Shown here piece by piece: positions 1 through 39,078 of a DNA stretch of 41,297 nucleotides. Source of the DNA: Solobacterium sp. (GTDB lineage Bacteria > Bacillota_I > Bacilli_A > Erysipelotrichales > Erysipelotrichaceae). Each line of letters begins with the position of its first letter. The first letter of the stretch is position 1. The stretch is taken from assembly GCA_024698805.1 (NCBI GenBank), contig JAILQT010000107.1, positions 1 to 41,297 of the forward strand, in the 5' to 3' direction. The notes beneath the pieces were generated by a model, which saw nothing but the letters and a program-made list of their open reading frames with translations, was not told where the DNA came from and did not search any database. The position numbers and the translations under genes were made by a program.

Positions 1-96
1 CATGCGCTTGATTTTTTGTGATTTTTGCATAAAAAAGAGAGATTTTGGCTGCTTACAACCTTCAATCTCCCGTTTGCCTGTTATTTCTGTCTCAGG

Positions 97-135
97 GTTG
101 CGCTATCTTTTACAAAGTTGCGCTGAGTTTTACAA
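97..135. repeat. Tandem 19-bp direct repeat in an AT-rich non-coding stretch
   Basis: Two copies (97-115 and 117-135) begin GTTGCGCT and end TTTTACAA. They match at 16 of 19 positions and have a 20-bp period, about two helical turns. Bases 1-249 hold no gene I can support. Short tandem repeats of this size occur at the termini of some insertion sequences (IS21-type elements, for example) and in tandem operators. The neighbouring pseudogenes make an IS-end remnant plausible, but no transposase is present in the window. Confidence 0.5.
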
Positions 136-194
136 CTCACCTTTTTCGTAATTGTTTTTCAAGATATGCAGCAGCTGATCCGCCATAATGAAAG

Positions 195-213
195 CCGGCA
201 GGAATACTGCCGG
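195..213 (-). terminator. Hairpin after the decayed epimerase gene
   Basis: A perfect 7-bp stem (CCGGCAG/CTGCCGG) closes a GAATA loop about 40 bp beyond the stop of the minus-strand epimerase remnant. Read on the minus strand it is followed only by CTTTCATT, so the U-tract is weak. Confidence 0.45.
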
Positions 214-252
214 TATTCATAAAATGATATCAGGAATGATGCAGGACTGTCC

Positions 253-1078
253 TCAGTCAACATCCAGTTCGTTTACTTCTTTGGGATATTCCCTGAGTTC
301 GTCCTCTTTGTGAAGTGGATTCCATACCTGGGTAAAGAACGGGTCGACTTTTGCCCGCTGACCGTAGTTCCAGCTTGTGCGTTCGCATTCGTAACACCAG
401 TGGCCGCCTTCCAGGATGAGACGGGGACTGGTCTTAAACGTATGTCCGAATGCACATCTGCAGGAAAGTTTTGTCTTCCAGCCGCCCTTCTTCATTGCTG
501 TGCTGAGCAGTGTGCCGCCGCGGAACTCCACTGCTTTTTTCATATCTTCATATGTGAGTTCCCCTTCCGGCTTCGTCTCGTCATATCCGTGATCGATAAG
601 TACGACTGCATCCCAGTCCGTGAAGTGATCCATCTCGGCGGCTTTTTCCGGGAGAGATTCCCATGCTTTGCGGCTGCCCCAGTACGCATCGATATGGTCT
701 TCCATATTTTCATCGATCCAGTGCTTTGGACCATGTTCGGAATTTGGCGCTTCTTAGAACGTGCTTTTGATTATGTTCCCCATCATCTTCTCCCCGCCGG
801 GAAGGGCGCACAGCTTTTTGCCGAAGGAGGCTGCAGGTCCGAGTTCCTACAGATAGGCATCCACGAAATACCGGATGCTGTCGGAACGGAAGTGCAGATA
901 GTCTTCCAGTTTGTCGGAATCAAGATAATACTGGCTGTGGAAGTTCCTTGTCGCGGTATGTTTGTTGTCGATGACATTGTCGAGTCCTTGATCCCGATCT
1001 CACTGTACATGCGCCTGTACATCTCGTACGTATCGATGCGGTACGGTTCGCCGCCGCCGGTATTGCAGATAAGGAACT
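253..1078 (-). pseudogene. Decayed NAD-dependent epimerase/dehydratase-like gene, 5' end missing
   Basis: The minus strand carries remains of one protein. It opens at the very edge with ICNTGGGEPYRIDTYE, then has a frameshift near 980 (an IKD codon run passing into the LDNVIDNKHTATRNFH frame), a stop TAG near 868 (after VDAYL) and a stop TAA near 757 (after KSTF). From there it is open for 150 residues to 253. The C-terminal part has CxC and CxxC pairs about 24 residues apart, which suggests a zinc ribbon. The text resembles the C-terminal half of roughly 450-residue epimerase/oxidoreductase proteins of Firmicutes, recalled by eye only. The N-terminal Rossmann half is absent. The family call is moderate, but the pseudogene status is well supported by the three lesions. 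Confidence 0.6.
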
Positions 1079-1525
1079 GTGCAGCCGGCGGATATCAACC
1101 GCACGACGTTCTACAGGCATTGCGGTGACCAGGAAGCGAAACTGGTGGACAGGACGATGGATTACATGAAAGATGTGAGCCGCGATGCCGCAATGGTCGA
1201 CCTCATCGAAGCGTTTCTGAAATATGTGCGTCAGGATGCAGCCCTGTTCCGCGTACTCTTCTGCTGCGGCAGCACACATGAACAGCAGATGCTCTCCTAT
1301 ATGCAGAACGTTCTGAAAGGACTTCGTTCCAACCTTCCGGGATACGGTACGGAAAAGCAGGAAAAGTATGTCCTGGATTTCCTGATGTACGGGACCTTCC
1401 ATGTCCTCCTGGCATGGATCGAGAACGATTTTGACATGCCTGAAAAAGAGATCGCCGGACTGATCTATACGATGTGCGGCAGCATCAGCACCGGCATCGC
1501 AGAAAAAAACCGCCCTCATTGCTGA
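1079..1525 (+). pseudogene. TetR-family regulator lacking its N-terminal DNA-binding half
   Basis: The open frame begins with the end of a TetR recognition helix (DINRTTFYRH, then GDQEAKLVD) and continues into a typical helical ligand-binding domain of about 140 residues. A normal TetR protein has about 35-45 residues before this motif. Here that sequence is replaced by the antisense of the epimerase remnant, and the frame meets TAA at 1070. The only usable start is GTG at 1079, with no ribosome site. A protein made from it would lack the first HTH helices and should not bind DNA. The stop at 1523 lies inside the terminator of the facing glucosidase gene. Confidence 0.72.
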
Positions 1526-1531
1526 GAGCGG
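1503..1531 (-). terminator. Rho-independent terminator of the GH1 gene
   Basis: Read on the minus strand, a 9-bp stem with one mismatch (CCGCTCTCA/TGAGGGCGG) and a GCAA loop is followed by seven T residues. It lies 9 bp past the stop of the 6-phospho-beta-glucosidase gene. It overlaps the last codons of the facing TetR remnant. Confidence 0.85.
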
Positions 1532-1539
1532 CAGGATGA

Positions 1540-3051
<1,512 letters not shown>

Positions 3052-3055
3052 CTAT

Positions 3056-3085
3056 ATTATAGGTTCTTTTCTGTCATACCGTCTA
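3056..3085 (-). promoter_or_regulatory. Possible promoter for the first GH1 gene
   Basis: On the minus strand a perfect TATAAT (3056-3061) lies about 28 bp before the GH1 start. The -35 candidate TAGACG (3080-3085) is 18 bp away and matches consensus at 4 of 6 positions. Confidence 0.35.
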
Positions 3086-3139
3086 TCCGGCGAATGCATT
3101 CCCTGCAGACGAACACCTCAACGGTTTATTATCGGCAGT

Positions 3140-3889
3140 TCATCCGTGCTTCTGTTTCCGCAGCTCCTGTGCGATCACATCATTGAACATCAGGAATGCG
3201 AACGTATCCGACAATACGGTGCTGGTCGTATCCGCAAGCGGAAGCGTGGGAAGACAGAACACCTCATCAAAGTTATGGCGCAGAGGATGTTTGGAATTCG
3301 TGGTCACCAGGACCAGGTAAGGCTTAACGGCATTCTCCACGCGGAAATTGCGGAGGAAGCCCTGATGCGAGTTCCCGCTGATCGCGGAATAGATGATCAC
3401 CATATCGTTTTCTCTGAAATGATACGGCATCATATCCGGTTCGGGCATCATTGCACATATGTCATCCTCAAATGACAGCGCGATCAGCATCTCTTCCGCA
3501 GGAAGCCGCGAAAGATTTGCCCCTGCCAGGATCACCTTCCTGCTGCCGCGCATCCGGCGAATCAGGCTGCGTATCTCTTCCGTGCTGATCGATCTCTCCG
3601 TCTGTTTGAGGATACTTGCGTATTTTTCCCCGTTTGAACTCTTTGAATCGTTCTCCTTCAGTTCTTTCAGATCCTGGGCAAGCTGATACTGCAGTTCCGC
3701 AAACCCGCCGAAGCCGAGTTTCTTTGCGAAACGCGTCAGGGCCGGTTTTGTCACTTCGCTGTCATCGGACACTTTTGTGATGCTGCTGGTCGCAAATTCT
3801 TCCGGGAATTTTCTGATCATTTCATATATGCGCCTGTCGGTCTTGGAGAATGAACTGACAGCCGCATCCATTAATTCCAAAGTATTCAT
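3140..3889 (-). CDS. RpiR/MurR-family sugar-phosphate-responsive regulator
   Basis: This is a 249-residue transcription regulator of the RpiR family, with an N-terminal helix-turn-helix and a C-terminal SIS domain that senses a phosphosugar. The N-terminus (MNTLELMDAAVSSFSKTDRRI) is typical. The HTH segment VTKPALTRFAKKLGFGGFAE and a SIS-like stretch with REN, VIIYSAISGNS and VLVTTN follow. I chose the ATG at 3889 because GGAGG sits six bases before it; an in-frame start at 3940 would add 17 residues without a ribosome site. The gene is divergent from the PTS EIIC gene, with a palindrome between them, so it is the likely regulator of the EIIC/ChbG/GH1 genes and of itself. Repressor or activator role cannot be read from sequence. 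Confidence 0.88.
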   Translation of the reverse strand: MNTLELMDAAVSSFSKTDRRIYEMIRKFPEEFATSSITKVSDDSEVTKPALTRFAKKLGFGGFAELQYQLAQDLKELKENDSKSSNGEKYASILKQTERSISTEEIRSLIRRMRGSRKVILAGANLSRLPAEEMLIALSFEDDICAMMPEPDMMPYHFRENDMVIIYSAISGNSHQGFLRNFRVENAVKPYLVLVTTNSKHPLRHNFDEVFCLPTLPLADTTSTVLSDTFAFLMFNDVIAQELRKQKHG

Positions 3890-3925
3890 ATAGGGCCTCC
3901 CTGACAGTATCATTATAGCGCAAAT

Positions 3926-3963
3926 GGAAACGAAATGCATTTCATAAATAAAATATGTTTCAT
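3926..3963. promoter_or_regulatory. Candidate RpiR operator in the divergent intergenic region
   Basis: A perfect 12-bp palindrome GAAATGCATTTC (3932-3943) is framed by an outer pair, GGAAAC (3926-3931) and GTTTC (3957-3961). It lies just upstream of a minus-strand TATAAT (3912-3917) that could serve the rpiR-type gene, and about 75 bp upstream of the predicted EIIC start site. The assignment to this regulator rests on position. Confidence 0.5.
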
Positions 3964-3979
3964 TTTTGTATTTTTATTA

Positions 3980-4008
3980 TTGACACATGTTTTGTTTATG
4001 GCTATAGT
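3980..4008 (+). promoter_or_regulatory. Sigma-A promoter of the PTS EIIC operon
   Basis: A consensus TTGACA (3980-3985) is separated by 17 bp from TATAGT (4003-4008). The predicted start is near 4015, leaving a leader of about 67 bases before the EIIC start codon. Confidence 0.82.
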
Positions 4009-4020
4009 ATGGGTGTGAGG

Positions 4021-4034
4021 TAAAAGCGCTGCCA
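4021..4034 (+). promoter_or_regulatory. cre-like site for CcpA repression
   Basis: TAAAAGCGCTGCCA matches the 14-base cre consensus TGWAARCGYTWNCW at 12 positions. It lies just downstream of the predicted start site, a usual place for catabolite repression by roadblock. Confidence 0.5.
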
Positions 4035-4081
4035 AACGGCTGCCTGATCAGCAGCAAAAAAGAAATCTGAGGAGATTGAAA

Positions 4082-5350
4082 ATGGAGAAACTATTAGATA
4101 AACTGATCGCAATTTCAGCTAAATTTGCACAGAATACTGTATTGAATATCATCCAGGGCGCATTCATGATGTTAATGCCGATCACGATGATCGGCGGATT
4201 CACCGCCCTCTTCAACGGCATCGGCATCGATGCTTACCAGGCATTCATCGCTTCGACCGGGATCAAGAGCGTTCTCAGCGTCATCTACCAGTGGACGATC
4301 GGCATGTTCGGTGTCTACGTATCCTTCCTTGTTGCATACCAGTTTGCCAGGACGCACAAATGCGCAAAATCAGATATCGCTGTAGCCCTGACTTCCCTGG
4401 TCTGCTTCCTGATCGTTACACCGTATGTCATTCCGGAAGAGCCCTTCGCTGCAAACTCCCTGCCGACGACATGGCTCGGTGCATCCGGTATGTTCACAGG
4501 CATCATCATTGCCTTCGTGGTTGGCTACATCTTCAAGTTCTGCCAGAAATACAACATCGTCATCAAGCTGCCTGAGCAGGTCCCTCCTATGGTCTCTGCA
4601 CAGTTCACAAGCATTATCCCCGGTGCGATCTCAATGATCCTCTTCGGCATCATCAATCTGATCTTTGCCGGAACTCCCCTCGGTTCTTTCCACCAGCTGA
4701 TCTACACAGTCGTTTCCGCACCGCTTAACGCAGTCGGCTCCAATATCTTCGGCTGCTGGATCCTGATGGTCGTACTCTACGGACTCTGGTTCTGCGGCAT
4801 TCACGGCGGCATGACAGTCGGACCGATCATCATGATGCTCTTCATGCAGCTGCAGATGGAGAACATGGCGGCTTACCAGGCAGGCCTGCCTCTGCCCCAT
4901 ATGTTCGTCGGCGACGCATTAAGCTATGGCTCCGGTTCCATTCCGATGATCATCGCTGCCCTGCTTATCTGCAAGTCGGAATCCAACAAGTCCATCTCCA
5001 GACTTGGCTTCCTGCCCGCATTATTCGGTGTCGATGAACCCGTATACTTCGGTATGCCGATGATCCTGAACCCGATCTTCTTCATTCCCTGGGTCCTCAT
5101 CGCCCCGACAGTATCCGTCTTCGGAACACACCTGCTCAAGCTGGTCGGCCTGCTGGGCTATTCCAACGCAACAGGCGGCCAGAACGCTGCCAACCTCCCG
5201 TTCTTCGTCGGCAACATGATGAACTACGGTGTCAGGGGTCTGATCTGGGGCTGTGTACTGTTCGCAGTCATCGTCCTTGCCTATATACCTTTCGTAAAAG
5301 CATATGACAAACAGATGCTTGAAAAGGAAAAGGAAACTGTAACTGAATAA
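4082..5350 (+). CDS. PTS EIIC permease, lactose/cellobiose family
   Basis: This 422-residue integral membrane permease has many hydrophobic segments and the family landmarks GAFMMLMPITMIGGF near the N-terminus, WFCGIHGGMTVGPI in the middle and GVDEPVYFGMP with PF(F)VGNMMNYG toward the C-terminus. It should import and phosphorylate a beta-linked disaccharide together with EIIA and EIIB partners. No EIIA or EIIB gene is present in the window, so these must be encoded elsewhere or shared. ATG at 4082 follows GAGGAG with seven-base spacing and is preferred over an upstream in-frame TTG. The gene leads an operon with a ChbG-like deacetylase and a GH1 phospho-glucosidase. Confidence 0.93.
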   Translation: MEKLLDKLIAISAKFAQNTVLNIIQGAFMMLMPITMIGGFTALFNGIGIDAYQAFIASTGIKSVLSVIYQWTIGMFGVYVSFLVAYQFARTHKCAKSDIAVALTSLVCFLIVTPYVIPEEPFAANSLPTTWLGASGMFTGIIIAFVVGYIFKFCQKYNIVIKLPEQVPPMVSAQFTSIIPGAISMILFGIINLIFAGTPLGSFHQLIYTVVSAPLNAVGSNIFGCWILMVVLYGLWFCGIHGGMTVGPIIMMLFMQLQMENMAAYQAGLPLPHMFVGDALSYGSGSIPMIIAALLICKSESNKSISRLGFLPALFGVDEPVYFGMPMILNPIFFIPWVLIAPTVSVFGTHLLKLVGLLGYSNATGGQNAANLPFFVGNMMNYGVRGLIWGCVLFAVIVLAYIPFVKAYDKQMLEKEKETVTE

Positions 5351-5360
5351 CCAGAAAAGC

Positions 5361-5391
5361 GGAGGAGGATGGGATACCGTCCTCCTTTTAT
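5361..5391 (+). terminator. Attenuator-like hairpin between EIIC and ChbG genes
   Basis: AGGAGGA (5363-5369) pairs with TCCTCCT (5380-5386). Inner GG/CC pairs give a stem of about 10 bp with a GATA loop, followed by TTTATC. The short U-tract suggests partial termination or mRNA end protection that would raise permease output over the enzymes. The 5' arm itself is a GGAGGAGG string. Confidence 0.6.
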
Positions 5392-5412
5392 CAAAGGAAA
5401 GAGAGGAATACT

Positions 5413-6207
5413 ATGAAACTTCTTGTACAGAGCGATGATTACGGAATCACAAGGGCAGTCTCCCTCGGCTGCATCCACGGCATCAGGAACGGTATCGTAC
5501 GGAATACAGGCATGTTTGCCAACATGCCCTGGATCGAAGAATGCGTCGACTGGATCAGGCCTTATCTTGACCGGATCGCATTCGGCATCGACCTCAACGC
5601 ATCTACAGGACCTTCCATCCTCGGACATGATAAACTCCCCACACTGACACACGAGGATGGGATGTTCCTGGGTTCAAAAGAGAACCGGGAACTGGATACC
5701 GAAGAAAACGGTCATGACCATCTGGCTGCGCACAGGGACGAACTGTACGCTGAATTCAAAGCGCAGATCGAAAGATACATCGAGCTTGTCGGCCATAAGC
5801 CTGACTACATCCACAATCATGCCTACGGCACAAAAACAACGGATGAAGTCACACGCACACTGGCAAAAGAATACGGCATCCTCTGCTCCGTCGCATTCAT
5901 GGACAGGCCGGAAGTAAAGGAAGCCGGCATGGGCTGGTATGTCTGGGGCGGTCCGGAAGCGCAGCTTGGTGAAGACCCTGTCTCCTATATCACATCGGAC
6001 AAAGGCGGTATCCTCGATAAGGAATACGGGTATATCGTTTCCCATTGCGGCTATGCGGATGCGGATCTCTTCAAACTGACAAGTTTCTCCACCTGCAGGG
6101 TCAAAGATCTTGAAGCCATGACAAGCGATGCGGTAAAGAACTGGGTGAAGGAGAATGATATCGAACTCGCTTCATTCAAAGACCTGCCGAAGGAATGGAT
6201 CGCATGA
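5413..6207 (+). CDS. ChbG/YdjC-family carbohydrate deacetylase
   Basis: This 264-residue protein has the YdjC/ChbG fold. It carries an early metal-binding DD pair (QSDDYG, Asp8-Asp9), a conserved FGIDLN segment, HNH (about residues 133-135) where the family has its metal histidines, and a late SHCGYAD segment. Characterised members remove one acetyl group from N,N'-diacetylchitobiose or its 6-phosphate, acting after PTS uptake. AGAGAGGAA precedes the ATG. Its place between a lac/cellobiose-type EIIC and a phospho-glucosidase fits processing of a phosphorylated acetylated disaccharide in the cytoplasm. The substrate is inferred from family and context and is not proven. Confidence 0.85.
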   Translation: MKLLVQSDDYGITRAVSLGCIHGIRNGIVRNTGMFANMPWIEECVDWIRPYLDRIAFGIDLNASTGPSILGHDKLPTLTHEDGMFLGSKENRELDTEENGHDHLAAHRDELYAEFKAQIERYIELVGHKPDYIHNHAYGTKTTDEVTRTLAKEYGILCSVAFMDRPEVKEAGMGWYVWGGPEAQLGEDPVSYITSDKGGILDKEYGYIVSHCGYADADLFKLTSFSTCRVKDLEAMTSDAVKNWVKENDIELASFKDLPKEWIA

Positions 6208-7586
6208 CATACCGTTTCCCGGACAGTTTCCTGTGGGGTGCCTCCACAAGCGCTTTCCAGGTCGAAGGCGGATATAACGAAGGCGGAAGAGGTCTTGCGA
6301 CCACGGATGTTCAGAAAGTGCCGGAAGGCACAGCGGACACCAAAGTCGCAGCCGATCACTACCATCACTGGCGTGAAGACGTCAGCCTGATGGCAGAGCT
6401 CGGTCTGAAGACATACCGCATGAGTTTTTCCTGGAGCCGCATCATGCCGGATGAAACGCTGAGGCCGAATGAAGAAGGTCTGGCTTTCTACGACCGGCTG
6501 ATCGACGCATTGCTGGAAAACGGTATCGAACCGTTCGTCACCCTTTATCATTTTGAATGCCCGCAGGCACTTGTCGAAGCATTCGGCGGCTGGAAGAGCC
6601 GGAAAATGATCGATGCGTATGCAGCTTATGCCGAAGTATGCTTCAGGCATTTCAAAGGCAGGGTCAGAAAATGGGTCACTGTCAATGAACAGCTGATCGC
6701 AACTGCCGCAGGCAACCTCAACGGGAACTTTGAGAAAGATCCCGTAAAGAATCTGAAAAACATCTATCAGATGAGTTACAATGTTTCCCTTGCGGAACAT
6801 AAGGCATTTGAACTCCTGAAAAAGATCGATCCCGAAGCACTGATCGGTCCCGTATGCGCGATCCAGGTCGTCTATCCGTACTCAAGCAGGCCGGAAGATG
6901 TCGCTGCTGCGTGGCAGGCAGAAGAGATGATGGAGTTCTATATGCTTGACATGAGTGTAAGAGGCGCGTACTCCCCTTTCGCTGCCTCTTATCTCAAAAC
7001 GCATGGCCTGTATCCCGAAACAGACCCGTCCGATGAAGCAGTCCTGAAAGGATCTTCACCCGACTTTATCGGCGTAAACTATTATTTCTCGGTCTGCGCA
7101 AAGAAAAAGGAAGGCCCTGTCAATTATAACCAGCCTCCTTTCTGGGTCTCGGAACTGTATGATATCTGTGACAATCCCCATCTGAAAAAGACAGAGTGGA
7201 TGAACATGGGCATCGATCCCGAAGGCCTGCGTACCGGCATGGAAAAGATATACCAGAGATACCTGCTGCCGATGATCATCACCGAGAACGGCATGGCCGT
7301 CAGCGAAACTCCCGATGAAAACGGCAGGATCGACGACACGTACAGGATCGAATACATTAAAGCGCATCTGGAACAGGTCGCTGTCATGCTGGAAGAAGGG
7401 ATAAGCATCATGGGGTACTGCCCATGGAGCTTCCTGGACGTCGTCTCTTCCCATCAGGGATTCGCGAAGAGATACGGACTCGTTTATGTCGACAGGACAG
7501 AAACAGATCCGAAAGACTGTGCAAGGATCCGGAAAAGCAGCTTTTTCTGGTACCGGAACGTTATCCGTCAGAACAGTCTGCTATAG
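6204..7586 (+). CDS. 6-phospho-beta-glucosidase, glycoside hydrolase family 1 (second copy)
   Basis: This is a 460-residue GH1 enzyme starting MTYRFPDSFLWGASTSAFQVEGG. Acid/base Glu162 is in VTVNEQ and nucleophile Glu361 in IITENG. The phospho-sugar residues Ser415/416, Lys422 and Tyr424 are in the segment VVSSHQGFAKRYG, with a phosphate loop one residue shorter than in the first GH1 of this locus. ATG at 6204 overlaps the ChbG stop (ATGA) and has AAGGA nine bases upstream, so it is preferred over ATG at 6195. Translational coupling suggests it uses the deacetylase product or the same imported disaccharide phosphate. The protein is clearly diverged from the gene at 1540-3027, so the two probably differ in aglycone preference. 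Confidence 0.92.
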   Translation: MTYRFPDSFLWGASTSAFQVEGGYNEGGRGLATTDVQKVPEGTADTKVAADHYHHWREDVSLMAELGLKTYRMSFSWSRIMPDETLRPNEEGLAFYDRLIDALLENGIEPFVTLYHFECPQALVEAFGGWKSRKMIDAYAAYAEVCFRHFKGRVRKWVTVNEQLIATAAGNLNGNFEKDPVKNLKNIYQMSYNVSLAEHKAFELLKKIDPEALIGPVCAIQVVYPYSSRPEDVAAAWQAEEMMEFYMLDMSVRGAYSPFAASYLKTHGLYPETDPSDEAVLKGSSPDFIGVNYYFSVCAKKKEGPVNYNQPPFWVSELYDICDNPHLKKTEWMNMGIDPEGLRTGMEKIYQRYLLPMIITENGMAVSETPDENGRIDDTYRIEYIKAHLEQVAVMLEEGISIMGYCPWSFLDVVSSHQGFAKRYGLVYVDRTETDPKDCARIRKSSFFWYRNVIRQNSLL

Positions 7587-26805: not shown

Positions 26806-26849
26806 AAAGCGCAGACGTATACTGCAGCGTCTGCGCTTTCGTTTTGTCT
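26806..26849 (+). terminator. Terminator of the DegV gene
   Basis: A perfect 12-bp stem AAAGCGCAGACG/CGTCTGCGCTTT with a ten-base loop is followed by CGTTTTGT. It can also act on the converging phosphatase transcript because A-rich sequence precedes it. Confidence 0.85.
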
Positions 26850-26855
26850 GTTGTT

Positions 26856-28031
26856 TTACAGCTCCTCGATCGAAACGATCTTTCCGAGTTCTTCGAGACT
26901 CGATGCGATCTCCCGGACGACCAGTTTCTTGGCTTCCAGGGAAACATCGCTGCCCAGGTTATGATGACCTGCATTTTCCGAAAGACCGAGCAGGAACGTC
27001 ACTGCACTGGAATCAGCCAGCGCTTTTACAAGGAGGGTCGCACCGTCTTCTTCTTTGGAAAGAAGGAGATCTTCATAGAATTCCGGGTCTTTGCAGGAAT
27101 GGCGCAGGAGCAGGCTGACTTTCTGCATCGTGATCAGGCCTTCTGTGACGAGGTCAATGCCTTTGATGAATGCCTTGGGAGGCACATCGCTCATCGGCGT
27201 ATCGGTATCGGGGACGACGTCTGTCTGCAGATACCGCGCAACGATCTGGCTCGTCGTGCCGCCGCAGACGATCCTTTGGCCGCTTGCCTTCATCAGCCTC
27301 GACAATACCTTTTCATCATTCTCCTTGTTTTTCGGAGGTCCTGCCATGACGACCGTCTCCGTTGCGGGGATGATCCTGGCTGCTGCGACGGTGCAGTCAT
27401 CGCTCGGCTTGCCGTCATACAGGCTGTTCACCATGGCAAGCAGGATCCTCGCACATTCCCGGGCAGGATCCTCATCCGTGATCGCCGCGCCGAGGAACGC
27501 TTCGACATCGCTCTGCCCCCAGTCGTAATTCAGCTTCATCTCCGTATCCGCATACAGGATGCCGTCGGAGAAGAAGAGGATATGGTCATCCGGCTCAAGC
27601 ATGAATTCCGATTCATAGATCTTCTTCCCGCTGATCATGACCTCTTTCTTTTCGTAATCCAGGACCTGGTTCCTGCGGATGAATACCGCGATCGGGTTGT
27701 CATACTGTGCCAGACGCGCCTTGCCGCTGTAATCGACCTGCAGGATCGTAAAGGTGCTGTAGGCAACTTCCCTTTCGGAACAGACCGGCAGCGTCGCCGC
27801 GATGGTCTCGACCGCTTCATACAGGGGCAGGCCTTCGAAGATCATCTCCGATATGATCTTGCTGGTCAGGGTGGAAAGGATGTTTGCCTTGACACCGGAA
27901 CCGAGTCCGTCCGCCAGGACCATAACGAACGAATCCTCGTTCCGCCTGATCATGACTCTGTCGCCGCACAGCTCCTCACCGTAATGAAACAGCGATTTCC
28001 AGGCGGCGTCCACGTGGATCCTGGCGCTCAT
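26856..28031 (-). CDS. SpoIIE-type PP2C serine phosphatase coupled to a hydrogenase-like sensor
   Basis: This is a 391-residue protein. Residues 1-225 form a SpoIIE/PPM phosphatase: metal-binding Asp41 in LADGLGSGVKAN, Asp156 in FFSDGI and Asp211-Asp212 in SDDCTVAAARI. Residues about 230-391 form an extra domain that I do not recognise (RIVCGGTTSQIVARYL, late helical VVREIASSLEELG). There is no membrane segment, so it is a cytoplasmic enzyme. The start overlaps the stop of the hydrogenase-like gene by four bases (ATGA), so the two are made together. SpoIIE phosphatases usually dephosphorylate STAS proteins; an STAS/RsbW-like pair lies at 35218-35940. The sensor-to-phosphatase link is inferred from coupling and from the known association of one sensory [FeFe]-hydrogenase group with PP2C genes. 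Confidence 0.88.
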   Translation of the reverse strand: MSARIHVDAAWKSLFHYGEELCGDRVMIRRNEDSFVMVLADGLGSGVKANILSTLTSKIISEMIFEGLPLYEAVETIAATLPVCSEREVAYSTFTILQVDYSGKARLAQYDNPIAVFIRRNQVLDYEKKEVMISGKKIYESEFMLEPDDHILFFSDGILYADTEMKLNYDWGQSDVEAFLGAAITDEDPARECARILLAMVNSLYDGKPSDDCTVAAARIIPATETVVMAGPPKNKENDEKVLSRLMKASGQRIVCGGTTSQIVARYLQTDVVPDTDTPMSDVPPKAFIKGIDLVTEGLITMQKVSLLLRHSCKDPEFYEDLLLSKEEDGATLLVKALADSSAVTFLLGLSENAGHHNLGSDVSLEAKKLVVREIASSLEELGKIVSIEEL

Positions 28032-29713
28032 ATCTTCTCTCCGTTGACGACTTTCTGCAGGTTGAGCAGCGCGACCTTTGAGCTTGCGGTCGTTTCACCG
28101 AGCATGGACGCGATCTCCTGGACCGTGCGCATCTGTTCGTTGATGACCTTCTGCGTGACTTCCATCGTCTTCGCACGCGCTTCCGCCATGGCAACTTCCT
28201 GCAGTGTCTCTGCGGTCCTGTCCATCAGGATGATGACACGCAGCGACTGGCTCCGGACATTGACGATCGCATGTTCGAACAGCTTGTCATACATGTCGTA
28301 GTAGCAGTGGAAATGGGAAGCCTTGAAGCCTGTTTTCCTTATCAGGTCAAGCAGGTCTTCGTTGGGGAGGATCCCTTCCAGGGGCATCCCGACCGGGTTC
28401 ACCATATCCAGATTGAGCATTTTCCTGGCAGTGGCATTCATATCATAGACAAGCAGTTTCTCGTCGGTGACGATGATGCCGTTCGGCGTATTGTCGAATA
28501 CGACGCCGGCCAGGGACTGCGCCCTTTCCAGTGCGTCGGGCAGACAGATCTTCGGATCCGCCTTGCCGTCCAGTACGGCGATCGCCTTCAGGCGGCATGT
28601 CTCATAACCGCATCCGCCGCAGTCATGGATCTTCATCGGCGAAGTCTTGCCCATGGCGATCATCTGCTTATTGATCTCTTCTTCGGTATGGACAGGATGG
28701 TATACAGGATCCGCTCTCCATTCCGCCTTCATCTCGACAGGGAGCTCGCCGCCGGTGACCTTCGGTTTGTTGGAAACGGCCCTGCGGATACTGCGGTGTG
28801 CAGAGAATTCACTGTGCTTGTAATGCGAGAGCAGCGGTCCTTCCAGACATGCGCCGCGGCAGGAGTTGACCTCAAGCAGGCAGCCGTCCAGTTCGCCTTT
28901 GCGGATTGCTTCCAGCATGACCCGGACACGCTCGATTCCGTCGACAGGGAGGTAATCATAGTATTCGTTTTCGGGAAGGGTCGCGATGACGCCGCCGGCA
29001 GTCGGATAGACCCTGGAGATCGAGCCTTCAAATTCTGTCCACTCCCCTTCTTCGGATTCGCTCAGATCGTTTCGGAGCCAGTCCAGCACTTCCTCCATAC
29101 TGATGCAGGCATCGATGGAGCCTGCGAATCTCGCATCCGCGATCTCCTTGTACTTTGCGATGCACGGGGAAAGGAATACGATCTTCGCATCGGGATGGTT
29201 CTGTCTGATCATGCGGCCGTGGGCAATGATCGGGGATACCACGGGCGCCATCTGATCGATCAGATCAGGATATTCTTTTTCGATGAGCGTGTTGACAGCC
29301 GGGCAGCATGTCGTGATGATGTTCTTCATCGTATGCTCGTTCATCAGGTTGATATAAGCCCTGGAGACCATCGCGGCGCCTTCCGCCGTCTCCCGGACAT
29401 CCACGAACCCCCTCCTTACCAGCATGTTTTTCACGATGCCGATATTCTGCCAGACGACCGCGAAGCTCGGTGCTGCGCTGAGGATCACCTCTTCGCCTGC
29501 AGCCAGCCACGAGAGGACTTTCTTCATATCGGATTTTGTCGATTTGGCGTCATGCGGGCATGCGGCATAGCATCTGCCGCAGAGAATGCACTCGTTTGCC
29601 TCGATGTTCGGGGCATTTTTGAGATATGTCATCGCGTTGGTCGGGCATGCCCGCACACAGCGGAGACAGCTGCGGCAATGGGAATCCACAAGACGGATAT
29701 ATTCTGATTTCAT
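28028..29713 (-). CDS. Sensory-type [FeFe]-hydrogenase homolog with PAS domain
   Basis: This is a 561-residue cytoplasmic iron-sulfur protein. Domains in order are: two 4Fe-4S ferredoxin motifs (Cys13/16/19/23 and Cys42/45/48/52); an H-cluster domain (about 65-320) with L1 TTCCPAV (Cys136-137), L2 LSPCIAK (Cys184) and L3 NSCRGAC (Cys285, Cys289); a PF04060-type 4Fe-4S motif (Cys365/368/373/390); a PAS domain (about 400-500) and a helical tail (500-561). All four H-cluster cysteines are kept. The PAS tail and the coupled SpoIIE phosphatase fit the group C (phosphatase-linked) sensory class rather than bulk H2 metabolism. It probably senses H2 or redox state. A mature H-cluster would need HydEFG, which is not in the window. 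GGAG precedes the start. Confidence 0.88.
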   Translation of the reverse strand: MKSEYIRLVDSHCRSCLRCVRACPTNAMTYLKNAPNIEANECILCGRCYAACPHDAKSTKSDMKKVLSWLAAGEEVILSAAPSFAVVWQNIGIVKNMLVRRGFVDVRETAEGAAMVSRAYINLMNEHTMKNIITTCCPAVNTLIEKEYPDLIDQMAPVVSPIIAHGRMIRQNHPDAKIVFLSPCIAKYKEIADARFAGSIDACISMEEVLDWLRNDLSESEEGEWTEFEGSISRVYPTAGGVIATLPENEYYDYLPVDGIERVRVMLEAIRKGELDGCLLEVNSCRGACLEGPLLSHYKHSEFSAHRSIRRAVSNKPKVTGGELPVEMKAEWRADPVYHPVHTEEEINKQMIAMGKTSPMKIHDCGGCGYETCRLKAIAVLDGKADPKICLPDALERAQSLAGVVFDNTPNGIIVTDEKLLVYDMNATARKMLNLDMVNPVGMPLEGILPNEDLLDLIRKTGFKASHFHCYYDMYDKLFEHAIVNVRSQSLRVIILMDRTAETLQEVAMAEARAKTMEVTQKVINEQMRTVQEIASMLGETTASSKVALLNLQKVVNGEKI

Positions 29714-29743
29714 ATGATGTGCTCCTTCTTCTGACTGATTAAA

Positions 29744-29864: not shown

Positions 29865-30623
29865 TTACTGACCGGGTTCAAAGAGCCGCCATTCGCCGGT
29901 TTCCTTCTGCAGGAAAGGTTTCATCTCACCGGAACAGACCATGCGGATGTAATCCTGAACGGACCCGACCGGCTGCAGGCTGCACATGCCGGCGATCTCC
30001 GGTTCAAGTCCTTTCTTCTTCAGGCCTTCAAACACCGCCGAGGCAACATGGTTGTCCGAGCCGCATGTTTTCAGCAGGCCGTATCTGTCCGCATAGATCT
30101 GCGCCATTTCGTTGGCGAGCGGCGGCTGGTGGGAATTGATGATCTCCGCGGCGTGGACGACCCTCGGGAAAAGACGGATATGGTCGATATAGTGCGCTTC
30201 CCTGTAAGGATGCGCCTGCACGACGAAAGCGCCTTCCTGCATCAGGAAGCCCAGTTCTTCCGTTTTCGTCATCTTCATGATCTCCGGATGCGCCCTGTAC
30301 CACTCTTTGTCCAGACCGTAGATCAGGAAATCCGTGCCCTTATAGGAAAGCTCTGTCCCGGGGAACACTTTCAGCCCGATCTTCTTTCCTTCTTCCGCAG
30401 CCTGCTCATAATCGGAATAGTAATAATCGACCTGTTCCTCATACGGCAGGCTCCTTGCGCGGATATTGATATTCCCGTCCAGGAAATGATTTGTCAGGAA
30501 GATGCCGTCATAGCCGATCTCTTTGTAGAAACGTACCGTCTCCTGCACGGATGCCCTCCCGCAGTTGGAAACGGGGGAAGTATGGCAGTGCGTCTCATAT
30601 CTGTAATAGTTCTCTGTATCCAT
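29865..30623 (-). CDS. PHP-domain metal-dependent phosphoesterase
   Basis: This is a 252-residue PHP protein. Metal ligands lie in ETHCHTS (His12, His14), FLTNHF, FPGTELSY, VVQAHPYRE and CGSDNH. The fold is that of histidinol-phosphatase/PHP phosphoesterases, but members have diverse substrates. GGAAT precedes the ATG. It is the last gene of an operon with an aldo/keto reductase and a TIGR04076 protein, 36 bp after the reductase. A phosphorylated sugar or small metabolite is a likely substrate; none can be named. Confidence 0.85.
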   Translation of the reverse strand: MDTENYYRYETHCHTSPVSNCGRASVQETVRFYKEIGYDGIFLTNHFLDGNINIRARSLPYEEQVDYYYSDYEQAAEEGKKIGLKVFPGTELSYKGTDFLIYGLDKEWYRAHPEIMKMTKTEELGFLMQEGAFVVQAHPYREAHYIDHIRLFPRVVHAAEIINSHQPPLANEMAQIYADRYGLLKTCGSDNHVASAVFEGLKKKGLEPEIAGMCSLQPVGSVQDYIRMVCSGEMKPFLQKETGEWRLFEPGQ

Positions 30624-35217: not shown

Positions 35218-35514
35218 TTATTCGATCGTCAGGATGTCTGAGAAACCGGTGACTTCAAAGATCTCCATAATGATCTCATTCACATGGATGACCTTCATCT
35301 TTCCCTGTCTGTTCATGACCTTCTGTGCGGAAAGCAGGACGCGCAGACCGGCAGAGGAGATATAGTCCAGTTTTTCCAGATCCAATGTCAGTGATTCTAT
35401 TCCGTCCAGAGATTCAGACATCTCTTTTTCCAGTTCCGGTGAAGTCGTAGTATCAAGACGTCCTTCAAGTTCAATGGTCAGTTCTTTTCCGTTTTCGATT
35501 TTGTTGATGGTCAT
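35218..35514 (-). CDS. STAS-domain anti-sigma factor antagonist
   Basis: This is a 98-residue STAS protein of the SpoIIAA/RsbV type. It starts MTINKIENGKELTIELEGRL, with LTLDLEKLDYISSAGLRVLL at the core. The phospho-acceptor by alignment with SpoIIAA is Ser54 (second Ser of the SS pair). Unphosphorylated, it would bind the RsbW-like kinase encoded 18 bp upstream; phosphorylated, it would let go. GGAGGA precedes the ATG. A cytoplasmic SpoIIE phosphatase able to reset it is encoded at 26856-28031. No sigma factor gene is adjacent. Confidence 0.92.
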   Translation of the reverse strand: MTINKIENGKELTIELEGRLDTTTSPELEKEMSESLDGIESLTLDLEKLDYISSAGLRVLLSAQKVMNRQGKMKVIHVNEIIMEIFEVTGFSDILTIE

Positions 35515-35532
35515 TTACATTTCCTCCCGTAA

Positions 35533-35940
35533 TCAGATTTTTTTCTGCAGATGCAGGACATTCTGTCCGTCCCTGTATTCATAGCTCATATGATCCATGA
35601 GCTGTTTCACCATGAATATGCCCAAGCCGCCGACTTCACGTTCTTCAACAGACAGCGTAACGTCAGGATCGATCTTCTCAGCCGGATTATACGGTATCCC
35701 CCTGTCTTTAAAGGTGATCGTTACCATGGAATCCGGTTTGGAGACTTCCACGCTCACTGTCGCCTTCCCCTTCCCGGGGGCGTAGGCATAGTGTGCGATA
35801 TTGACGAAGATCTCCTCGACCGCCACATCGATCTGTGTCTGTGCTTTTATGGGGCAGCCTGCTTCCTCTAGCTGTGCATCAATAAATTCCAGCACGGCCG
35901 CGGTATTGACAACTGCCGCATCGATTGTTAATTCTCTCAT
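35533..35940 (-). CDS. RsbW/SpoIIAB-like serine kinase (HATPase_c_2)
   Basis: This is a 135-residue GHKL ATPase. The N-box is VEEIFVNIAHYAY (Glu42-43, Asn47), the G1 box FKDRGIPYNP (Asp79) and the G2 box GGLGIFMVK (104-112). It should phosphorylate the STAS protein encoded just downstream and bind a sigma factor or another target when the STAS protein is phosphorylated. Only a weak AAGAG site precedes the ATG. The leader region 35941-36060 holds no consensus sigma-B promoter that I can see. The missing sigma gene means the output target is unknown. Confidence 0.9.
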   Translation of the reverse strand: MRELTIDAAVVNTAAVLEFIDAQLEEAGCPIKAQTQIDVAVEEIFVNIAHYAYAPGKGKATVSVEVSKPDSMVTITFKDRGIPYNPAEKIDPDVTLSVEEREVGGLGIFMVKQLMDHMSYEYRDGQNVLHLQKKI

Positions 35941-37890: not shown

Positions 37891-39078
37891 ATGCTTTACA
37901 ACGAATTCCAGGGAATGCAGTTATCCCGTCTCGGTTTCGGCTGCATGCGTTTCGCGAATGATCCGGCAACAGGTGAGATCGACCAGGACAAGGTCAATAA
38001 AATGTTTGATCTTGCGATCTCCGGCGGCGTAAATTACTTCGATACGGCGTATCCGTACCTCAGCGGGAAATCCGAACTTGCCATGGCGGAAGCACTGAAA
38101 AAGTATCCCCGTGACAGCTATTACATCGCTGATAAATTCCCCGGTCATTCCCTGCCCGGACCGGTGGACAACATCGCGCTGTTCAATCTTTCCCTGAAGA
38201 AATGCAATACGGATTATTTTGATTTCTACCTGCTTCACAACATCACCGAATGGTCGGTCAAGATCTATGAGAGTGATGAATACCATATCATCCCCGACAT
38301 CCTGAAGATGAAGGAAGAAGGAAAGATCCGTCATCTCGGCTTCTCGTTCCACGGCGGACCGGACCTGCTGGAAGAGTTCCTGGACCGCTATGAAGGCGTT
38401 TTTGAATTCGTGCAGATCCAGTGCAACTACCTGGACTGGACGCTGCAGGACGCAAAGAGGAAATACGACATCATCACAAAGCACGGTCTCGGCGTATGGG
38501 TCATGGAGCCCTGCCGCGGCGGGAAACTGGCAGTTCTTCCTGAAGCGGATTCTGCCAGACTGAAAGCCTTTGACAAAGAAGCGAGCGACGCATCGTACGC
38601 GTTCCGCTTCCTGCTGGGCCTGCCCAACATAAAGATGATCCTTTCCGGCATGAACGAGGTCGCGCAGGTAGAAGACAACCTGAAGACATTCAATAACTAT
38701 AAGGCCCTTTCCGATGAGGAATACAAGACCCTCGCGGACATCGCCGAAGGCATGAAAAAAGGCGTTCCGTGCACACAGTGCAGATACTGCTGCGACGGAT
38801 GCCCGATGGAGCTCGATATCCCGTATCTCCTCTCTGTCTACAACGACTACAAATACGCTGCTTCCGCTGTCAGCGGCATGCGTCTGGACGGTCTGGAGGA
38901 GAACAAACTTCCTTCTGCCTGCATCGGCTGCGGCCGGTGCTCGCACGCATGCCCGCAGGGCATCGATGTGCCTGCCGCCCTTCAGGAGCTTGCGAAGATG
39001 TACGCCGAAGGTCCGAAATGGGCGAACGCTGCCAAGAGCAGGCATGAAGCCATCAAAAAAGACCTGAACATGCAGTAA
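37891..39078 (+). CDS. Ferredoxin-type aldo/keto reductase (two 4Fe-4S clusters)
   Basis: This is a 395-residue protein. Residues 1-280 are an AKR barrel with Asp51 (YFDTAY), Tyr56, Lys82 (IADKF) and His116 (YLLHN). Residues about 285-370 carry two 4Fe-4S motifs: CTQCRYCCDGCP, with one more Cys than usual, and CIGCGRCSHACP. Such proteins are common in anaerobes and may use ferredoxin rather than NADPH. AGGAGG precedes the ATG. It shares the transcript of the GH13 gene, though no metabolic link is obvious. The substrate is unknown. Confidence 0.9.
   Translation: MLYNEFQGMQLSRLGFGCMRFANDPATGEIDQDKVNKMFDLAISGGVNYFDTAYPYLSGKSELAMAEALKKYPRDSYYIADKFPGHSLPGPVDNIALFNLSLKKCNTDYFDFYLLHNITEWSVKIYESDEYHIIPDILKMKEEGKIRHLGFSFHGGPDLLEEFLDRYEGVFEFVQIQCNYLDWTLQDAKRKYDIITKHGLGVWVMEPCRGGKLAVLPEADSARLKAFDKEASDASYAFRFLLGLPNIKMILSGMNEVAQVEDNLKTFNNYKALSDEEYKTLADIAEGMKKGVPCTQCRYCCDGCPMELDIPYLLSVYNDYKYAASAVSGMRLDGLEENKLPSACIGCGRCSHACPQGIDVPAALQELAKMYAEGPKWANAAKSRHEAIKKDLNMQ

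Follow-up and report, generated by a model that had tools for sequence, protein, structure and literature searches.

Does the hydrogenase-like protein encoded beside a serine/threonine phosphatase in this stretch of DNA sense hydrogen, and does it act through its neighbour? The window analysed (41,297 nucleotides) is one entire contig of a 91%-complete MAG of 2.81 Mb in 146 contigs; Solobacterium sp. and Erysipelotrichaceae from rumen and gut are the names carried by genomes of the same genus. A preliminary description had placed two open reading frames here and both exist, one coding for a HydS-like protein and the other for a phosphatase (Table 1). The two were also described as translationally fused in expression. 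Of this claim the four-nucleotide ATGA overlap stands and the fusion does not; from the overlap we propose that the genes are probably coupled in translation. With a Shine-Dalgarno sequence (AGAAGGAG) upstream of HydS and a terminator-like stem after the phosphatase, the pair looks like a self-contained two-gene operon.

Table 1. Features of the HydS-phosphatase pair, in window coordinates
Feature	Coordinates	Strand	Evidence
HydS, group C-type [FeFe]-hydrogenase-like sensor, 561 aa	28028..29713	-	ORF, Pfam, tree, AlphaFold model
SpoIIE/PPM-type serine/threonine phosphatase, 391 aa	26856..28031	-	ORF, Pfam, structure model
HydS stop/phosphatase start overlap, ATGA, 4 nt	28028..28031	-	Sequence; overlap or abutment in 31/31 relatives
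Shine-Dalgarno AGAAGGAG before HydS ATG	29722..29729	-	Sequence
HydS N-terminal 2x[4Fe-4S] ferredoxin domain; C13 C16 C19 C23 / C42 C45 C48 C52	29546..29692	-	Fer4_10/Fer4; all eight Cys invariant
HydS H-domain (PF02906); L1 TTCCPAV, L2 SPCIAKYKE, L3 EVNSCRGACLEGP	28835..29491	-	Pfam; C137, C184, C285, C289, K187 conserved
HydS C-terminal cluster motif C365-x2-C368-x4-C373-x16-C390 (PF04060)	28538..28624	-	Pfam, alignment
HydS PAS domain	28220..28498	-	Pfam PAS 406-460; predicted strands 412-498
HydS C-terminal helical tail, near-invariant QMxxVQEIASLLGETTAxSKVALxxL	28046..28216	-	Predicted helices 500-538, 543-556; 105 homologues
SpoIIE phosphatase domain; D41, D156, D211, D212 conserved, D24 just upstream	27372..27938	-	Pfam, alignment
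Phosphatase C-terminal alpha/beta domain; invariant GGT, PP, GxDLxTEG	26859..27359	-	Pfam-less; alignment, model
13-bp palindromic stem, terminator-like, directly after phosphatase stop	26806..26839		Sequence

HydS has Pfam matches to Fer4_10 (residues 8-53), Fe_hyd_lg_C (75-293, 1.4e-39), FeS (PF04060; 364-392, 1.1e-7) and PAS (5.7e-6). The architecture described earlier, in which all H-cluster cysteines are kept, a PF04060 4Fe-4S motif is added and the protein ends in a PAS domain and a helical tail, was recovered in full. The cubane cysteines C137, C184, C285 and C289, and K187 (K358 in the CpI numbering, which was obtained here by motif alignment and not from the CpI sequence itself), are unvarying in 105 HydS homologues. 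In the same set the positions equivalent to A230 and P231 show no variation, while that of S232 varies in four; within the Erysipelotrichaceae clade of HydS the [2Fe]-pocket equivalents of A230, P231, S232, P324 and K358 are all invariant. The C299 position in this clade (n=33) is occupied by Cys in 25, Ala in seven and Ser in one. The window protein has Cys at this position (TTCCP), with Ser and Asn at the positions of M353 and M497, respectively. Sensory-type hydrogenases typically have such replacements at the M353 and M497 positions and mostly a residue other than Cys at C299 (PMC10055695). The four C-terminal cysteines exactly match the Cx2Cx4Cx16C motif described for the M2e/M2f sensory enzymes (PMC8163306). 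Thermotoga maritima HydS (M2f) likewise combines a C-terminal four-cysteine cluster and a PAS domain with a residue other than Met at the M497 position; unlike the window protein, with Cys and Ser, it has Ala at the C299 and Gly at the M353 position. The AlphaFold model of HydS (pLDDT 76) aligns in its H-domain with an active enzyme, CbA5H (8zqd), at Z 27.5.

The tail that follows the PAS domain is near-invariant across Erysipelotrichaceae and Clostridia. A role as a histidine-kinase DHp segment was considered and rejected, since the H-box-like position is Gln in 33/33 sequences of clade 1 and in 57 of the 58 from Clostridia. From its conservation and predicted helices, the tail is the best candidate for an output surface that transmits the signal to the phosphatase.

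The phosphatase contains a SpoIIE domain (PF07228, residues 32-220, 7e-19), and D24, D41, D156, D211 and D212 are invariant in the alignment of relatives, in agreement with the intact metal sites noted earlier. Its model (pLDDT 88) aligns with Bacillus subtilis SpoIIE (5ucg) at Z 24.3 and rmsd 2.5 over 211 residues. The predicted PPM fold and the metal-binding aspartates are those of the SpoIIE/PPM class and are shared with B. subtilis SpoIIE (5ucg, 3t91); unlike the latter, the window phosphatase has HydS as a partner and carries a C-terminal domain of unassigned function. An unknown C-terminal domain had been noticed before, and its approximately 165 amino acids indeed have no Pfam match. 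In the model, residues 225-391 form a mostly well predicted alpha/beta domain; the match lists of the structure comparison made for its fold were filled by the PPM domain.

To which class HydS belongs was addressed with an H-domain tree of 80 rows representing groups A, B, C and D. Each group formed one side of a branch (A 100/100, B 96/93, C 95/92, D 100/100), with the window HydS inside the group C clade (43 rows) beside Anaerorhabdus furcosa, Holdemania massiliensis and Traorella massiliensis; T. maritima HydS was not among the rows, so that the group C label of this clade rests on architecture. Against the NCBIfam models for groups A and B the protein stayed below cut-off, scoring 180 of 450 bits with TIGR04105, the best, and 82 of 406 with TIGR02512. 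HydDB lists group C3 as "phosphatase-linked (putative)", whose members may sense H2 and regulate via serine/threonine phosphatases (PMC5037454). The window HydS matches this group by its domains, a group C H-domain with PAS, and by the adjoining gene for a Ser/Thr phosphatase, rather than by assignment with the HydDB classifier, and is like C3 a putative sensor.

HydS was found at E<=1e-63 in 44 of 70 genomes of the same genus. Wherever both genes were readable, in 31 relatives, HydS and the phosphatase lie on the same strand at a spacing of -26 to +1 nt, and against an 88%-identical relative dN/dS is 0.05 for both genes; the pairing is therefore not due to chance. Among 80 wider loci from named genomes, the phosphatase adjoins HydS in 57 of the 73 with a readable HydS. 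The pair is found across Clostridia and in some spirochaetes, and its frequent companions are a group B hydrogenase, AdhE and a 2Fe-2S protein. Many relatives have the gene order group B hydrogenase - thioredoxin-like 2Fe-2S protein - HydS - SpoIIE, and in clostridial loci the order is AdhE - kinase-like - 2Fe-2S - HydS - SpoIIE - group B. In contrast to these operons, the window pair stands alone, with the adjacent group B hydrogenase, 2Fe-2S and AdhE genes absent. The genes hfsA, hfsC and hfsD of Thermoanaerobacterium saccharolyticum are presumed to correspond to genes of the relatives' operons. As in Ruminococcus albus, where HydS occurs with a phosphatase, and in the hfsB system, a PAS-bearing group C hydrogenase is co-encoded with regulatory and fermentative genes, the relatives of the window having the 2Fe-2S protein, HydS, SpoIIE and the group B hydrogenase in one operon. 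This layout agrees with reports on the R. albus HydS and phosphatase subunit (PMC6776011) and with the effect of hfsB deletion on adhE in T. saccharolyticum (PMC5707799). The domain order, the exact Cx2Cx4Cx16C motif, the phylogeny and the conserved gene pairing all bear out the view that this is a phosphatase-linked, group C-type sensory hydrogenase: the sensor/phosphatase unit is real, conserved and of an already proposed kind, and is not new as a kind.

HydE, HydF and HydG are normally needed for assembly of the H-cluster. None of the three was detected in the genome of the window, a result that leaves H2 unsupported as the obvious signal; the preliminary description had suggested sensing of H2 or redox. 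Among the genus genomes searched HydG passed the cut-off in none, and HydE was found in 10 of 61. All three maturases also went undetected in A. furcosa, H. massiliensis and T. massiliensis, Erysipelotrichaceae isolates that have the HydS-phosphatase pair. Clostridia with the pair, in contrast, have HydE (17/17), HydG (16/17) and HydF (9/9 tested). Whereas group C3 is generally interpreted as sensing H2, the lineage of the window thus appears to lack the maturases, and this is what is new here. It is highly improbable that their absence is an artefact of assembly or detection in an otherwise ordinary group C3 pair. Such a reading would draw on the incomplete and fragmented state of the window genome, but the maturases are equally missing from the isolates, of which H. 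massiliensis is a high-quality draft in 8 scaffolds (PMC4062643), and from the single-contig genomes G058 and G064, each with a hydrogenase of group A type. The search also picks up diverged HydG at ~540-600 bits in members of the family, and together with its own control this is evidence against detection failure. Calls of absence can nevertheless mislead, since in several acetogens HydG was not identifiable by motif (PMC9431212); these acetogens were the only case encountered in the literature searched for maturase-free [FeFe]-hydrogenases, which held no report for the HydS family.

Since the maturases were undetected here and are present in the pair-carrying Clostridia, HydS may carry only the cubane, without the [2Fe] subsite, and may report the redox state of its iron-sulphur clusters rather than H2. 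Against a cubane-only H-domain, the invariant [2Fe]-pocket residues of the Erysipelotrichaceae clade and the Cys at C299 in 25 of its 33 sequences could mean that the [2Fe] site is still made, and the group A and B hydrogenases of those genomes likewise retain most H-cluster motifs. With such a site HydS would be a true H2 sensor, as proposed for HydDB C3 and R. albus, with a complete H-cluster made by a HydG-independent route, or with maturases that were missed, and H2 binding would be relayed to the phosphatase. The invariant H-cluster ligands, and clostridial homologues of the same architecture in genomes with all three maturases, point this way, and an alternative maturation route could be offered by the HydE and HydF of about 10 members of the genus, mostly clustered with NifH/NifEN-like genes, or by the HydE-HydF-NifEN-like-HypDEF sets of order-mates. 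We consider the H2 sensor doubtful, for HydE and HydF went undetected along with HydG in the window genome and the three isolates. It is quite improbable that HydS is a slow catalytic hydrogenase beside a regulatory phosphatase that it does not directly control: the fold similarity to CbA5H and the Cys at C299 fit an enzyme, but the PAS domain, C-terminal cluster and invariant tail, the sensory-type residues at M353 and M497, the position in group C and the missing maturases do not.

The genus members with HydE and HydF mostly have these genes clustered with NifH/NifEN-like and ABC-transporter genes. The conserved HydG-less cluster reads NifH-like (GKGGIGKST) - two nitrogenase-component-1-like - binding protein/FecCD/ABC - HydF - a protein of 82-92 amino acids - HydE, and was seen at L209, L217, L218, L222, L224, L226 and L201/L216 (G041, G014, G018, G048, G032, G015 and G002), with its genes in a different order at L223 (G009). 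By eye, the 82-92 amino acid protein resembles the TM1266 hydrogenase regulator. Other HydG-less clusters, in order-mates, combine HydE and HydF with NifE/NifN-like (PF00148) proteins and HypE/HypD/HypF: L210 (G078:C17, 4981-15775), L213 (G077, 1-6387), L219 (G083:C29) and L220 (G091:C109), the last on a short contig and with HypE only. At L210 and L219 the cluster adjoins a group B-like [FeFe]-hydrogenase. Perhaps these order-mate clusters specify a hybrid route of H-cluster maturation, with HypDEF in the place of HydG.

In the group A hydrogenase of the genus, L1 reads TSCSPGW and not TSCCPGW in 30 of the 31 sequences read (L001 832-2595, L164-L193), which puts Ser where CpI has the cubane ligand C300. 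Group D-like proteins of 386-398 amino acids in this taxonomic order (L201 11571-12746; L202-L208) keep four H-domain cysteines. Their L1 is of the TSFCP type and their L2 lacks PCxxK, so the [2Fe] pocket looks lost, even in G073, which has HydE, HydF and HydG. The L201 gene sits next to hydAB among DRTGG, HATPase and PHP genes.

We lean towards a self-contained redox sensor/phosphatase unit formed by HydS and its neighbour, the H-domain of which is likely cubane-only in this lineage. The redox state of the HydS iron-sulphur relay would shift with electrons supplied by ferredoxin, a nearby hydrogenase or H2, and the change would reach the PAS domain by way of the C-terminal [4Fe-4S] cluster. 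From here the invariant tail (VQEIASLLGETTA, LLGETTA hairpin), presumably by physical contact, would switch the co-translated SpoIIE-type phosphatase up or down, and the phosphatase would dephosphorylate a Ser/Thr regulator. The probable targets of this regulator in the related operons are hydrogenase/AdhE fermentation genes. With HydE, HydF and HydG apparently missing, the H-domain would most likely hold only a [4Fe-4S] cubane and sense redox poise (reduced ferredoxin or FeS state), not H2. Eukaryotic Nar1/IOP1, which functions in FeS assembly, uses a hydrogenase-like fold without these maturases; it differs from the present pair in having neither PAS nor phosphatase.

As for the substrate, the phospho-STAS protein (35218-35514) proposed earlier is unsupported, since it lies ~5.5 kb away, is near HydS in one other locus only of those read, and a further eight SpoIIE-domain matches occur in the genome. 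The STAS protein and the HATPase_c_2 protein (35533-35940) are stand-alone, of the anti-sigma antagonist/anti-sigma type, with no dedicated phosphatase adjoining. We rejected the two (35218-35940) as a cognate output: at the one other locus, L066, the HATPase belongs to a protein that itself contains a SpoIIE domain, and neither was detected near HydS at the remaining loci read. As a substrate of the phosphatase, STAS is a weak candidate. The neighbouring PHP-domain gene (29865-30623), the aldo/keto reductase and the DegV gene show no conserved association with HydS among the loci compared. The aldo/keto reductase domain encoded at 37891-39078 is followed by a C-terminal 4Fe-4S dicluster domain.

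It is mainly owing to their PAS domain that the group C "sensory" hydrogenases pass for H2 sensors, and the literature examined contains no proof of a signal or an output for any of them. The HydS-phosphatase pair is a minimal two-gene unit, and it occurs in cultured species without detectable H-cluster maturases, in which the need for H2 and for the [2Fe] site in signalling can be asked. Since the lineage apparently lacks the maturases, the claim that group C senses H2 becomes directly testable in cultured bacteria. We tentatively suggest that the HydE/HydF/HydG-less Erysipelotrichaceae have kept the hydrogenase fold as a [2Fe]-less redox sensor that controls a co-translated phosphatase and makes no use of hydrogen. 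If it is true that neither H2 nor the [2Fe] site is needed, gut and rumen studies would have to revise their annotation of group C genes as "H2-sensing".
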